Below are positions 6,789-64,000 of a DNA stretch of 64,000 bases, in pieces. The stretch is taken from the NCBI GenBank assembly GCA_027620495.1, contig JAQCEA010000001.1, positions 124,001 to 188,000 on the forward strand, in the 5' to 3' direction. Numbering within the stretch: position 1 is the stretch's first letter; every line of letters begins with the position of its first letter. Made by a program: the position numbers and the translations under genes. The notes beneath the pieces were generated by a model. That model had not been told where the DNA came from. It saw only the letters and a program-made list of their open reading frames with translations, and did no database searches. The stretch comes from Pseudomonadota bacterium (GTDB taxonomy: Bacteria; Pseudomonadota; Alphaproteobacteria; Puniceispirillales; Puniceispirillaceae).

Positions 6789-9700
6789 GTGATTTTTCGT
6801 AGCCTGAAAATGGCCGGTTTCAAATCTTTTGCCGAAGCCGCTGAAATCGACATTGAGAGCGGTCTGACCGGCATTGTCGGGCCAAATGGCTGTGGCAAAT
6901 CCAATATTGTCGAAGGGTTGCGGTGGGTGATGGGGGAAAGCTCTGCCCGGCAAATGCGTGGCGGCGAAATGGACGATGTCATTTTTGCTGGCACCGAACA
7001 GCGCCCAGCCCGAAATCTCGCAGAAATTACGCTTGAACTTGATAATCGCAAACGAAGCGCACCAGCTGAATTTAACAATAGTGACGACATTGAAATCACC
7101 CGCAAAATAGAGCGCGGCAAAGGCAGCAGCTATTATGTCAATGCCAAACCAGCCCGCGCCCGCGACATACAGTTGCTGTTTGCTGATGTTGCCAGTGGCG
7201 CGCGGTCATCCGGCATTGTCAGTCAGGGGCGAATCGGTGCGATTGTCGGGGCGAAACCAACCGATCGGCGGGCACTTCTTGAAGAAGCCGCGAATATTCG
7301 GGGCCTGCATGCTCGGCGGCACGAGGCCGAATTGCGATTACGTAGTGCTGAAAGCAACCTAGAACGGCTGGATGATGTCATTGCTGGCCTGATTGAGCAA
7401 CGCGAATCGCTGAAGAAACAGGCCCGGCAAGCCGCCCGTTACAAATCCGTTGCCGATCGCATCCGCAAGGCTGAAGCCCAATTGCTGTTGGCAAGCTGGA
7501 GCGTCGCCACCACCGAATTGACAGTGGCAGACACAGATTTAAAGCAAGCAAAATCGGCTGTTGAAGATCGCACGCAACTGGCCGCAAAAAGCGCCACCGC
7601 CCGTGCCGAAATCAGCGCATCACTGCCGCCGTTGCGGCAGGCAGAAGCCGAAAGAGCCGTGGCGTATCAGCGTCTTTCGATTGGCCGTGAGGAACTTGAC
7701 CGCGAAGAAGAGCGTCTCCAACAGGCGATACAACAACTCGCCGACCGGCAAGCCCAGCTGCGCGCGGATATCACCAGAGAGACCAGTCTTCGTGATGATG
7801 CCAACACCGCCATACAGCAATTAAATGATGAAGCCCGTCATCTTGCTGATGAAATTGCCGAGGCCACACCGCGACAGGCTGAAACAGCACAAAATCTAGA
7901 AGCGGCCCGTGCCAGTGCAACTATGGCTGATACGGCACTCGCCGATGCCAGTGCGGCATTGCGCGCCGCCGCAAACACGCGCGCGGCGCTTACCAATCGG
8001 CAAAATGATATCACCGCCAGACAGGCGGTGGCAAACGCATCACTCGCCAGTTTGGCAACCAATGAATTGGCCAAACAAGCCGAAGCCGCCGCCACCGAAC
8101 AAATTGCCGCCGAAGCAGATTTCCACGCGGTTAATAAAGCACTCGAAACAGCCGATACAGAATTGACCGCGGCCACGGCGGCGGCCGAAGCCACCGAAAC
8201 AGCACGCCGCGATAGCGCCGCACAAATCGCTAGACTGCAAGCCGAAATTGACGCGCTGCAATATCTGCTTGCCGATCAAGATGACGGCGAGTCACGCCCG
8301 GTGATTGACCAGCTGTCGGTGCGTGATGGTATGGAAACCGCACTGGCGGCGTATCTAGCCGATGAATTATCACTGCCGGTTGGTGGTGGGCGGCGCGGCT
8401 ATTGGCAATCAGCACCGCAAAAAACCGATCTCGAGCCGCCAGCTGGCACCACCGCCTTGGCCGATTATGTATCTGGTGTCCCGGCACTGACAACGGCACT
8501 AGCTGGTGTTGGTGTTATTGAGGATCCAACACAGGCCGAAACCCTGCAAGCACAACTGCGCCCCGGACAAGCCATCACCAGCAAGGATGGCAGCCTATGG
8601 CGTTGGGACGGGTTTGTACGGCTTGCTTCCAAGGCAAACAAGAGCGCCGAACGGATCCGTCAACGCCAACGTCTTGACCAATTGCAAAGCGAACTCACCG
8701 CCAGTTCCAAAAAAGCTGAAAAAGACCAGACCAACGCACAGCAGACGCAAGACACCCTTGCCCAATGTCAAACCAGATTACGTGATTGCCGGGCGGCCAG
8801 CCTTGCGGCTGAAAAGAAATACGGAGAAATGCGGCGGCAAGCCGAATCTGATGCGCTGAAAGCAGAAGCGGCACAAATTCGCGCGGCGGAACTCACCCAA
8901 ACATTGCATGATTTGGCAACCAGTCTGGCAGATTGTGAGGCAGAAATTGCCAGTTTGGGCGATGATGCGGCGCTGAGCGCAACCGAAACCAGCACACGCC
9001 AAACCGCCGAGACAGCACGCGAGGCATTAACCGCCGCCATGCAAGCCCAATCGCGCCTTGCTGAAACCATCAAAAATGCGGAAAGCCGCCGCCGCACCTG
9101 TGAACAAGAGGCAAATGCCTGGCAAGTTCGGCTTGATGGTGCCGCCGGACGGATTGCCGAACTGGAAAATCGGCTGGCCGACGGCGTGCAAGAACAACAA
9201 CGGCTTGATGATTTACCGGGTAGCATTGCCAAAAGACGCATGGAAATTGGCGACCAGCTAGAACAGGCTGAAAACGCCCGGCAAGAAGCAGCCGATGCCT
9301 TGCGGTTTGCCGAAAATAAACTGGCCAAAGCCGAAGCCCTGCAACGCGACGCAGACACAGCATTGGCCGAAGCGCGCGAAATCCAGATCCGTGCCGAGGG
9401 CCATCAGGAACGCTGTACCACCAGACTGGCCGACCTAAAAGCGCGTATCTTTGAAAAGCTCAATTGTGCCCCTGATGCGGTGGCTGGCATTGCGGACACG
9501 GATGATCCGGCAAGCCTGCCAGGCATTGATGTGCTGGAAGATCGCGTTCAAAAATTGATTCGCGAACGCGATAATATTGGCCCGGTTAATTTGCGCGCCG
9601 AAGCCGAAATGGAAGATGTCACAACACGCATTACCGATATGGAAACCGAACGCGATGATTTGCTGGCGGCAATCGCCAAATTACGCGCCGCGATATCTCA

Positions 9701-10208
9701 ATTAAACCGCGAAGGCCGCGAACGCCTGCTTAAAAGTTTTGCCGAGGTGAACCAGCATTTTAAAGCCCTGTTCAATAAATTATTCGGTGGCGGCACCGCC
9801 GAGTTGCAATTAACGGACGCAGATGACCCGTTGGAAGCCGGTCTGGAAATTCTAGCCAGCCCACCAGGCAAACGTCTGCAATCTCTATCTTTATTGTCTG
9901 GTGGCGAACAGGCGCTGACAGCGCTAGCCATTATCTTTGCGGTATTTTTGACCAACCCAGCACCGATTTGTGTGTTAGACGAGGTCGATGCGCCGCTTGA
10001 TGATTCAAATGTTGTCAGATTCTGTGATTTGCTTCGTGATATTTGCTCGCAAACAGATACCCGATTCCTTGTTATCACCCACCATCGCATGACAATGGCG
10101 CGTATGGACCGGTTATTTGGCATCACAATGGAACAGCGCGGCATTTCAAAACTGGTCTCAGTTGACCTGCAAACAGCCGAAAGAATTCGTGATATTGCCG
10201 TGGCTTAA
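6789..10208 (+). CDS. smc: Chromosome segregation protein SMC
   Basis: ATPase of the condensin complex that compacts and segregates the chromosome. 1139 aa, GTG start. Walker A GPNGCGKS is at 31-38. Long Ala/Glu/Gln-rich coiled coils flank a hinge at roughly 490-620. The C-terminal head carries the ABC signature LLSGGEQAL (about 1036) and Walker B VLDEVDAPLDD (about 1061). The length is typical for alphaproteobacterial SMC. ScpA and ScpB are not in the window. Confidence 0.98.
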   Translation: MIFRSLKMAGFKSFAEAAEIDIESGLTGIVGPNGCGKSNIVEGLRWVMGESSARQMRGGEMDDVIFAGTEQRPARNLAEITLELDNRKRSAPAEFNNSDDIEITRKIERGKGSSYYVNAKPARARDIQLLFADVASGARSSGIVSQGRIGAIVGAKPTDRRALLEEAANIRGLHARRHEAELRLRSAESNLERLDDVIAGLIEQRESLKKQARQAARYKSVADRIRKAEAQLLLASWSVATTELTVADTDLKQAKSAVEDRTQLAAKSATARAEISASLPPLRQAEAERAVAYQRLSIGREELDREEERLQQAIQQLADRQAQLRADITRETSLRDDANTAIQQLNDEARHLADEIAEATPRQAETAQNLEAARASATMADTALADASAALRAAANTRAALTNRQNDITARQAVANASLASLATNELAKQAEAAATEQIAAEADFHAVNKALETADTELTAATAAAEATETARRDSAAQIARLQAEIDALQYLLADQDDGESRPVIDQLSVRDGMETALAAYLADELSLPVGGGRRGYWQSAPQKTDLEPPAGTTALADYVSGVPALTTALAGVGVIEDPTQAETLQAQLRPGQAITSKDGSLWRWDGFVRLASKANKSAERIRQRQRLDQLQSELTASSKKAEKDQTNAQQTQDTLAQCQTRLRDCRAASLAAEKKYGEMRRQAESDALKAEAAQIRAAELTQTLHDLATSLADCEAEIASLGDDAALSATETSTRQTAETAREALTAAMQAQSRLAETIKNAESRRRTCEQEANAWQVRLDGAAGRIAELENRLADGVQEQQRLDDLPGSIAKRRMEIGDQLEQAENARQEAADALRFAENKLAKAEALQRDADTALAEAREIQIRAEGHQERCTTRLADLKARIFEKLNCAPDAVAGIADTDDPASLPGIDVLEDRVQKLIRERDNIGPVNLRAEAEMEDVTTRITDMETERDDLLAAIAKLRAAISQLNREGRERLLKSFAEVNQHFKALFNKLFGGGTAELQLTDADDPLEAGLEILASPPGKRLQSLSLLSGGEQALTALAIIFAVFLTNPAPICVLDEVDAPLDDSNVVRFCDLLRDICSQTDTRFLVITHHRMTMARMDRLFGITMEQRGISKLVSVDLQTAERIRDIAVA

Positions 10209-62039: not shown

Positions 62040-62903
62040 ATGGCACCGTTTCACACCAGATTTGCGCCCAGCCCCACCGGGCCTTTGCATCGTGGGCATA
62101 TTTATGCCGCACAGGTTGCCCATCATTTTGCCAGATATAGTGGCGGCAAATTTACCCTGCGCATTGATGATATTGACCATACAAGATGCCGCGATCAATT
62201 TGTAAACGGCATTTATGATGATTTGCGCTGGCTTGGGCTGACATGGGACGGGTCGGTACCATTTCAAACCAAGCGGCTGGCGGCCTATCAGGCGGCGTTA
62301 AAAACATTGCAAAAGCTCGATCTTGTCTATCCTTGTTTTCTCAGCCGCAAAGAATTGGCAGATATTTTGACCGCGCCGCATGGCCATCCTGCCCCTGCCA
62401 GCATCCGCGATACAGATAAACTATTGCCACATAACGAACAGCAACGCCGCGCCGCTACTGGCACTGCGGCCGCTTGGCGCTTGCGGATGGATAAAGCACA
62501 ACAAAGCGCCGCCACGCGGCTTAGCTGGCATGATTACCTCACCGGGTCCCATCGCATCACCCCAGAAATTTTTGGCGATGCTGTGATTGCCCGCGGCGAT
62601 ATTGGCGTATCCTATCATTTGGCGGTGGTTGTGGATGATGCGCTTGATCACATATCACTGGTCACCCGCGGTATCGATCTAGCGCCCTCTACGCATCTGC
62701 ACAGATTGTTGCAGGCATTGCTGGGGTTGCCAGCACCTGACTATCTGCATCATGAACTGGTATGTGACGCGGCTGGCAAACGACTAGCCAAACGAGATGA
62801 TGCTGAAAGCATCGCACAATTGCGCGATAAGGGTTTAGATCAAAATGATCTGCTTGCCACACTGCCAGCCTTGCCAGCCTTGCCACGGTCAGCCTTGTCA
62901 TAA
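62040..62903 (+). CDS. gluQ: Glutamyl-Q tRNA(Asp) synthetase GluQRS
   Basis: Adds glutamate to queuosine in tRNA-Asp. 287 aa; the frame is open to 61911 but homologues begin at the HTRFAPSPTGPLHRGH segment, so ATG 62040 is used. HIGH-like HRGH is at 17-20 and the KMSKS-like KRLAKRDDAE near 250. The anticodon-binding domain is absent as expected. The zinc site seems lost: YPCFLSRKE keeps one Cys where the family has CxC, and I see no third or fourth ligand. Confidence 0.92.
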   Translation: MAPFHTRFAPSPTGPLHRGHIYAAQVAHHFARYSGGKFTLRIDDIDHTRCRDQFVNGIYDDLRWLGLTWDGSVPFQTKRLAAYQAALKTLQKLDLVYPCFLSRKELADILTAPHGHPAPASIRDTDKLLPHNEQQRRAATGTAAAWRLRMDKAQQSAATRLSWHDYLTGSHRITPEIFGDAVIARGDIGVSYHLAVVVDDALDHISLVTRGIDLAPSTHLHRLLQALLGLPAPDYLHHELVCDAAGKRLAKRDDAESIAQLRDKGLDQNDLLATLPALPALPRSALS

Positions 62904-62919
62904 TTTCCAATAAGGAAAT
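62903..62919 (+). terminator. Short stem-loop after gluQRS
   Basis: ATTTCC (62903-62908) pairs with GGAAAT (62914-62919) around a 5-nt loop, directly at the gluQRS stop. AT-rich and without a T-run, so weak evidence for termination. Confidence 0.25.
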
Positions 62920-62990
62920 ATATCAATATCCATCAAGCGCGCATGAACTATTATTTTCTAAAATTTTATAATTTTTGTTTATATCCGGGG

Positions 62991-63021
62991 TTGACTTAGA
63001 TTATTGCAAAGCTCATATAGA
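62991..63021 (+). promoter_or_regulatory. Candidate promoter of the sRNA
   Basis: TTGACT (62991-62996), then about 19 nt, then TATAGA (63016-63021; CATATA at 63014 with 17 nt is the alternative reading). The 50 bp upstream are strongly AT-rich (TTTTCTAAAATTTTATAAT), resembling an UP element. Transcription would start near 63027. Confidence 0.5.
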
Positions 63022-63026
63022 GTTTA

Positions 63027-63093
63027 CACCAAACGTTTGTTTGTGTGTTTCCTCCCTAGACTCGGTCGTGAGCATGCTCACGACCTTTTTTTT
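63027..63093 (+). ncRNA. Candidate trans-acting small RNA with CCUCCC loop
   Basis: A predicted transcript of about 65 nt runs from the promoter above to the strong terminator at 63064-63093. It starts with the palindrome CAAACGTTTG (63030-63039), then a single-stranded U/G-rich stretch carrying TTTCCTCCCTAG (63048-63059). CCUCCC is complementary to Shine-Dalgarno sequences and resembles the CCUCCUCCC loop motif of alphaproteobacterial 'cuckoo'/alpha-r sRNAs. No ORF fits. Neither the 5' end nor expression can be shown from sequence alone. Confidence 0.5.
63064..63093 (+). terminator. Strong rho-independent terminator
   Basis: GGTCGTGAGC (63064-63073) pairs perfectly with GCTCACGACC (63076-63085), followed by eight T. 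The most canonical intrinsic terminator I found in the window; it ends the candidate sRNA, not gluQRS, which stops 160 bp earlier. Confidence 0.9.
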
Positions 63094-63120
63094 GCCTTTC
63101 ATAAAACACGAAATGAGAAT

Positions 63121-63147
63121 TAATTATTTCTATATTGGAAATAATTA
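63121..63147. repeat. AT-rich perfect inverted repeat
   Basis: TAATTATTTC (63121-63130) and GAAATAATTA (63138-63147) are exact complements around a 7-nt centre. It lies 51 bp beyond the end of the minus-strand MFS gene and 28 bp after the sRNA terminator. It may be an operator or a hairpin at the MFS mRNA end; no T-run supports termination. Confidence 0.6.
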
Positions 63148-63197
63148 AACATGTTAGAATGGAAGATTGCTGCAATTTTTATCAAGACCGCGCCAAG

Positions 63198-64000
63198 TTA
63201 TGACGTGCGCAATGAAATATGCCGTTGATAAAACCCCAGCCAACCCAAACCGCAAGCCAAAATGGCGATCAGCACGCAACCAGCCAAAATAAGTACATCC
63301 CAGCCAAACTGGCTGTGTAAACCGCCAGCGGTCAAAGATGCCATGGCGACCAATGACGTTGTCGCCAGATCAGCCACACCCTGAACGCGGCCACGTTCTT
63401 CGGCTGTTGCCACGCTGGCAACCAATGTACTGCCGCCGATATAAAGGAAATTCCACCCTAGGCCGAGCAGAAACAAAGCCACAAAATAATGCGAGAATTG
63501 ATCGCCAGCCAAAGCGGTGATCATCGCCACGATATAGGCCAGCAGGCCAGCCAACAGAATTTTGATGATGCCGAATCGTTGGATCAAATTTCCAGTAAAA
63601 AATGACGGCGCAAACATCGCCACCACATGCCATTGGATGATCGTTGCATTGGCCGATGTGCCAAGCTGTGCCACATTTACCACCTGCAATGGCGTTGCTG
63701 TCATCAAATAGCTCATCAAGGCATATCCGATAGCCGCGCAGATCATACCCACAACAAATACCGGGTTGCGGATAAATATACCGATGGGCCGCCCGCCTGT
63801 TCGGGTAAGGGTGGGTTTTGGAATTTTCACCCCGGCTAATGCCAGCAGCGAAATGAGCTGCACCGCAGATACCGAGAAATAACAGCCGGCATAGAGGTAA
63901 TCCGGCACCCACTCAACCATATTGCGGGCGATTTCCGGACCAAATAACGCCGCCATCAGCCCACCCGCCAAAACATAGGATATCGCCTTTGGCCGTTCTT
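63198..64000 (-). CDS. Major facilitator superfamily transporter, C-terminal part (truncated by window edge)
   Basis: The frame is open to the window end; the apparent start at 63971 is only a TTG inside the protein, and upstream codons (ending ERPKAISYVLAGG) continue the family sequence. About 267 residues covering roughly seven helices are visible: a helix with AGGLMAALFGPEIARN, a cytosolic loop with TGGRPIGIFIRNPVF and a second half ending LGFYQRH. The GRPKA...GGLxAAxxGP pattern is common in a group of uncharacterised proteobacterial MFS proteins. Substrate unknown. Confidence 0.85.
   Translation of the reverse strand, partial: ERPKAISYVLAGGLMAALFGPEIARNMVEWVPDYLYAGCYFSVSAVQLISLLALAGVKIPKPTLTRTGGRPIGIFIRNPVFVVGMICAAIGYALMSYLMTATPLQVVNVAQLGTSANATIIQWHVVAMFAPSFFTGNLIQRFGIIKILLAGLLAYIVAMITALAGDQFSHYFVALFLLGLGWNFLYIGGSTLVASVATAEERGRVQGVADLATTSLVAMASLTAGGLHSQFGWDVLILAGCVLIAILACGLGWLGFYQRHISLRTS

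Follow-up and report, generated by a model that had tools for sequence, protein, structure and literature searches.

A predicted small RNA of the suhB/MmgR/SisA family downstream of gluQRS in a SAR116-type bacterium

The suhB RNA was described with a predicted promoter and terminator, a helix near its 5' end and a conserved unpaired sequence (Corbino et al. 2005, PMC1273637). Genomes usually carry the RNA in several copies (PMC1273637; PMC12559287). In Caulobacter crescentus, SisA is thought to act through a 10-mer. Regulation was confirmed there for 8 of the 10 SisA targets that were tested, TonB-receptor mRNAs are among the targets, and a sponge RNA, CrfA, pairs with the 10-mer with the help of Hfq (PMC12559287). 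According to a review, MmgR is the sole alphaR8 RNA of Sinorhizobium meliloti and limits polyhydroxybutyrate (PHB) granules, and AbcR1/2 (alphaR15) are Hfq-binding, CU-rich anti-Shine-Dalgarno RNAs named for ABC-transporter mRNAs (PMC7143759).

The window analyzed here is a 64-kb stretch of DNA from a marine SAR116-type bacterium. An earlier note on this DNA had proposed a CCUCCC-containing small RNA with its own promoter and terminator in a gene-free stretch. We found this 294-bp gap, between the ends of gluQRS and of a convergent MFS gene, and all the named sequence parts in place (Table 1). Both the promoter and the terminator are predicted in the sequence and conserved in orthologues. CCTCCC, at 63051-63056, occurs a single time in the window on both strands, compared with a mean of 18.2 occurrences in dinucleotide shuffles. 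Since an order-2 background expects only 2.6, this scarcity is not special in itself, and a special avoidance of CCTCCC was dropped as an idea.

Table 1. Features of the gluQRS-MFS interval and its neighbors (window coordinates)
Feature	Position	Strand	Basis
gluQRS-like gene (tRNA-synt_1c, PF00749), upstream neighbor	62040..62903	+	Sequence, Pfam; homologue adjoins the RNA in 22/37 loci
-35 element TTGACT	62991..62996	+	TTGAC-N17-NNATAT in 19/22 orthologues; identity 0.99
-10 element TCATAT, 17 nt after TTGAC	63013..63018	+	ATAT at 63015-63018 conserved in 19/22 orthologues
Predicted alphaR8/suhB (MmgR, SisA) small RNA	63026..63093 (both ends inferred)	+	Rfam RF00519, fold, covariation
5' hairpin, 9 pairs	63026..63048	+	Fold; 5' hairpin of at least 4 bp in 22/22 orthologues
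UUUCCUCCCU, alphaR8 10-mer, predicted anti-Shine-Dalgarno seed	63048..63057	+	Exact sequence; present in 22/22 orthologues
Intrinsic terminator: 9-bp stem, 4-nt loop (hairpin GGTCGTGAGCATGCTCACGACC, 63064-63085), then eight T	63064..63093	+	Stem of at least 7 bp in 22/22 orthologues
MFS transporter gene (PF07690), convergent downstream neighbor	63198..63998, continues past the window	-	Homologue in 20/37 loci

Among 4227 Rfam families, cut-offs were reached in the window by tRNA and RF00519 (suhB) alone. The RF00519 match lies at 63026-63100, covers the whole model (1-77 of 77) and scores 42.1 bits with a cut-off of 41 (E 2.8e-5); it is also the match that Rfam retains for its clan at this RNA. 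The margin of the window copy over the cut-off is only 1.1 bits. Because the score is barely above the cut-off, SAR116 members lie at the margin of what the current Rfam model covers. Rfam describes RF00519 as mmgR; it is the family called alphaR8, to which MmgR of S. meliloti and SisA-D of Caulobacter belong. All the alphaR8 traits of SisA-D are present at the locus: the 10-mer UUUCCUCCCU, a weak hairpin before it and a terminator after it. As the sequence and structure tests show, the predicted RNA belongs to the long-known alphaproteobacterial family suhB/MmgR/SisA, and the family itself is not new. A sub-threshold match to the IMES-4 model was seen on the opposite (-) strand at 63038-63106 (20.3 bits, cut-off 48). 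The IMES-4 consensus contains GGGAGGAAA, so we guess that this model may describe the reverse strand of such an RNA.

The window RNA resembles suhB RF00519 in its full-length model match, its predicted promoter and terminator, its helix near the 5' end, its unpaired conserved sequence and its several copies, but its predicted 5' hairpin has 9 pairs, compared with 4 in the Rfam consensus line. With SisA-D, it shares the identical 10-mer below a weak hairpin, the terminator, sibling copies and an Hfq gene encoded in the same genome. The sisA gene adjoins an FGase gene, whereas the window RNA adjoins gluQRS and the MFS gene (PMC12559287). MmgR is of the same alphaR8 family and has an anti-Shine-Dalgarno seed, but it is said to have three predicted stem-loops, compared with two predicted hairpins here (PMC7143759). 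Unlike MmgR, the window RNA has several relatives in its own genome; leader pairing does not support a direct role for it at phasins. AbcR1/2 are likewise anti-Shine-Dalgarno RNAs and have partial homology to RF00519; they differ in having three stem-loops, two anti-Shine-Dalgarno motifs and 114-120 nt, compared with two hairpins and a single motif in an RNA of about 68 nt here (PMC7143759).

Related loci were fetched with the Rfam model, giving 37 loci from 30 genomes, the window's own genome included. A gluQRS homologue adjoins the RNA in 22 of the 37, and these 22 form our orthologue set. The other 15 are 7 matches elsewhere in the own genome (L002-L008) and 8 loci of relatives. In the fold of the window RNA (-23.6 kcal/mol, z = -5.2), a single-stranded middle separates the 5' hairpin from the terminator, and none of 200 shuffles was equally stable. 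In this fold, UUUCCUCCCU is unpaired except for its first U, which agrees with the earlier proposal that CCUCCC lies exposed and could pair with Shine-Dalgarno sites. CCUCCC is likewise left unpaired in 19 of the 22 orthologues when each is folded by itself. Both hairpins and the 10-mer are conserved in all 22. The consensus structure of the orthologues has 13 pairs, 9 of which show two-sided changes, and both helices covary. The covarying stem and the conserved CCUCCC that the earlier note named as support were thus both found. Two-sided compensatory changes were seen in 34 cells, compared with a mean of 8.8 in shuffles. Pairing cells made up 97.2% of the total; shuffles gave 85.7%, and sliding gave 55.6% at most, in a test that favors the structure since it was derived from the same alignment.

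The predicted promoter spans 62991-63018. In the earlier reading, it consisted of TTGACT and TATAGA. TTGACT is conserved and was kept, while TATAGA, placed 19 nt from TTGACT, was replaced by TCATAT because relatives keep ATAT at 17-nt spacing (TTGAC-N17-NNATAT in 19 of the 22 orthologues). A scan with an E. coli-type consensus reported no promoter at the locus. GTCA was observed within 14 bp 5' of TTGAC in 15 of the 22 orthologues, mostly as the inverted repeat GTCA-N7-TGAC, which might form an operator at the -35 box. No GTCA precedes TTGAC in this way in the window copy (region 62978-62995).

Conservation was followed in 10-bp bins among 11 sequences of the same genus. Identity is 0.91-0.99 in the promoter boxes and 0.81-1.0 in the RNA, compared with 0.56-0.68 over 62880-62959. 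The first part of the interval that had been proposed for the RNA gene, 62940-62959, is weakly conserved (mean identity 0.58-0.60), and conservation climbs from 0.79 at 62960 to 0.99 at the -35 box (bin 62990-62999). The sequence TTTCCTCCCTARACTYGGYCGYRRG is present in 20 stretches of named genome records, 6 of them Candidatus Puniceispirillum or SAR116 records; 17 of the stretches are near gluQRS and the other 3 lie within 1.3 kb of the MFS gene. Taken as read from the sequence, the locus is in all probability a genuine gene for a small regulatory RNA, and it is well conserved. Among the same-genus sequences, conservation also remains at about 0.85 for some 50 bp past the terminator (63100-63149). 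In the window, these 50 bp contain an AT-rich inverted repeat, TTAATTATTTC-N7-GAAATAATTAA.

RF00519 scores rise to 46.8 for copies beside gluQRS in relatives and to 47.9 for any copy. The cut-off was passed in 10 of 41 genomes, the own genome included; the 31 others, several of which are incomplete, have no match above it. At E<=1, a level at which chance matches occur, 30 of the 41 genomes match, as do 12 of 14 control genomes, one of them above the cut-off. An order-specific model, R1, was built from the 22 orthologues beside gluQRS, and it matched at E<=0.1 in 32 of the 41 genomes, the own genome included. No R1 match at this level was found among the part of the first-look candidates that was scored in G001, G007, G023, G031, G027, G030, G033, G036 and G039. 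The last five make up family f4, in which neither RF00519 nor R1 found an alphaR8 RNA and in which 3 of the 5 genomes are at least 93% complete. Here the RNA may have been lost, may have diverged, or may have been missed since R1 scored part of the candidates. A thin search of the literature on marine and SAR116 small RNAs found no account of an alphaR8 RNA for this clade.

The own genome holds about five further alphaR8-like copies. R1 scores are 82.6 bits for the window copy, 40.6 for a copy on contig C28, 38.7 and 36.3 for two on C22, 35.2 for one on C11, and 21.3 for a degenerate copy on C22. The C11 copy (L003:1444-1514) and the two better C22 copies (L061:14-84 and 7354-7424) are 94.5-98.8% alike over 76-110 bp. 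The degenerate copy, the fourth of this set (L061, about 10060-10110), has no T-run and lies about 0.7 kb from an integrase-like gene. The C22 copies sit among small DUF1330, DUF3303, DUF3764 and HxlR genes, and the C22 and C11 copies look as if they had spread with a mobile or duplicating block. The C28 copy (L002:1501-1568) is directly upstream of a TauD-family gene on the same strand.

In most species, the alphaR8 gene is reported to adjoin an FGase gene (PMC12559287). An FGase linkage of the window RNA was considered and rejected because this adjacency is absent: the FGase gene of the own genome is on contig C7 and the RNA on C34; in G003, G020 and G025, each a single contig, 170 kb or more separates the FGase genes from the RNA at gluQRS. 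Four FGase regions (G000, G003, G014 and G025) were searched with R1, and no match was found at E<=1. A weak Rfam match of 19.6 bits, some 0.8 kb away from the G014 FGase gene, was not confirmed by R1 and was set aside. The missing adjacency does not count against membership, since the text on the suhB RNA reports that no specific neighbors were found (PMC1273637).

We are confident that the locus as a whole is best explained as a gene for an alphaR8 trans-acting small RNA of about 68 nt that would mask Shine-Dalgarno sites of mRNAs. A sigma-70-type promoter is predicted to make the RNA, whose 5' hairpin and terminator hairpin would frame the single-stranded UUUCCUCCCU. By analogy with the family, the RNA would act with Hfq, its 10-mer would pair with Shine-Dalgarno regions of the GGGAGGA type in several mRNAs, and the pairing would block ribosome entry and lower these mRNAs. 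Such Hfq-assisted masking, for which SisA is the model, is the likely mechanism. The likeliest targets would be nutrient-uptake genes, namely those for periplasmic substrate-binding proteins of the TRAP and ABC types, and possibly hfq itself.

Candidate targets were collected from the own genome, in which GGGAGGA lies 4-10 nt before ATG at 18 sites, compared with 3 for the reversed pattern. A start filter required a length of at least 60 aa and fewer than 45 open upstream codons; it dropped 7 of 19 distinct rows, and 1 passing row was removed as the reverse strand of an alphaR8 copy. Substrate-binding proteins account for 5 of the 11 remaining start-like genes, compared with 2 of 27 for the control pattern AAGGAGA, for which the filter dropped 7 of 34 rows (one-sided Fisher p 0.014). 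When only Pfam matches at E<=1e-4 are counted, the proportions are 3/11 and 2/27, and the difference is not significant (p 0.13). By Pfam, L043 and L054 are DctP proteins of the TRAP type and L060 is a LivK-like Peripla_BP_6 protein. L046 and L057 look like proteins that bind sulfonate or taurine; their SsuA_fam matches (E 7e-20 and 4e-20) score below the cut-off that NCBI sets, and L046 also aligns with a structurally solved taurine-binding protein (E 7.6e-8). The remaining genes encode Hfq (L052), TauD-like, PanB-like, histone-deacetylase-like and DUF3303 proteins and one unknown. One of these predicted GGGAGGA target sites thus belongs to L053, a TauD-family gene other than the one beside the C28 copy. 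Pairing of the seed region with the 11 candidate leaders ranges from -14.4 to -19.5 kcal/mol, and it is -16 kcal/mol or lower in 8 of the 11, compared with 5 of the 27 control leaders.

In relatives, all sites were fetched for G003, G016 and G020, and 7 of 57 for G025, of which 2 rows passed; the start filter dropped 32 of 80 rows. Substrate-binding proteins make up 18 to 20 of the 48 left, where 18 sums the counts of Pfam families among the 25 of 46 families listed, without SBP_bac_8 and with some members checked singly, and 20 adds L083 and L127. By eye, the same GGGAGGA leader is found in close homologues from another genus (L054/L154, L060/L092 and L046/L127). Three relatives of one genus in which no alphaR8 RNA was detected (G027, G030 and G033; R1 scored 116 of 381-410 first-look candidates in each, and RF00519 scored all) were examined as well. 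Of their sites, 30 of 35 were fetched and 17 of 28 rows dropped; 5 of the 11 start-like sites precede substrate-binding proteins, three distinct genes in all. Ten of the 11 were scanned, the one left out being an orthologue of a scanned MaoC-like protein. The same share without a detected RNA suggests that the substrate-binding link does not depend on the RNA, and this makes the target choice only a lead. Substrate-binding genes use this Shine-Dalgarno type anyway; the RNA may exploit it and need not have shaped it. These data point weakly to substrate-binding proteins and hfq as the target set.

Other origins and roles of the RNA were weighed. The earlier note had suggested a free-standing relative of the CCUCCUCCC (cuckoo) RNAs. 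Cuckoo RNAs are defined by the CCUCCUCCC motif and by deriving from or adjoining a DUF1127 gene. CCUCCC does lie in a single-stranded stretch of the window RNA, and a similar action on Shine-Dalgarno sites is conceivable, so that a shared way of working is possible. Membership was nevertheless rejected on both features: CCTCCTCCC is absent from both strands of the window, and the note's statement that no DUF1127 gene is present holds for the whole genome (no PF06568 match at E<=0.001). With an end-to-end match to RF00519 instead, we give this reading almost no credence. Barely more probable is that the RNA has no promoter of its own and comes from the 3' UTR of gluQRS, or serves that gene as a read-through terminator; a 3' UTR origin had been raised in the earlier note against its own proposal. 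The RNA starts about 122 nt past the stop of gluQRS, in the same orientation, and that gene adjoins it in most of the fetched loci. However, the promoter pattern is conserved in the orthologues, the other copies in the own genome lie in different gene contexts, and identity over the promoter boxes far exceeds that at the gluQRS end and in the DNA up to 62959. Since conservation within the interval is highest over the promoter boxes and the RNA, a gluQRS origin is very unlikely.

A role chiefly in regulating PHB granules through phasins, like that of MmgR in S. meliloti, is somewhat less improbable and still unlikely. The genome has PhaC and two Phasin_2 matches, one above and one below the Pfam cut-off. 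The two phasin leaders, however, carry CAGGAGA and AAGGAGA sites with seed pairing of -12.1 and -9.2 kcal/mol, weaker than in any of the 11 candidates, so a direct MmgR-like phasin role is not favored. The review also states that no direct mRNA target of MmgR was known (PMC7143759).

The preferred reading, an alphaR8 RNA that would mask Shine-Dalgarno sites, explains the finding by a described family, with the promoter and the family assignment corrected. SAR116 are widespread ocean bacteria, and a conserved small RNA with testable targets is gained for them. Annotators could use the gluQRS neighborhood as a marker, and the Rfam model, whose cut-off is missed by 31 of the 41 genomes while 32 match R1, could be broadened with SAR116 sequences. 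If the targets are nutrient-uptake genes, the RNA would tune uptake to nutrient state. A more specific picture remains doubtful: that the RNA has a fixed home between gluQRS and the MFS gene in the SAR116 order, with GTCA before TTGAC in most orthologues, and turns down many TRAP, tripartite-tricarboxylate and ABC substrate-binding proteins together with Hfq. If this were true, the alphaR8 family would converge on the role of AbcR, and regulation through the site at hfq would close a feedback loop.
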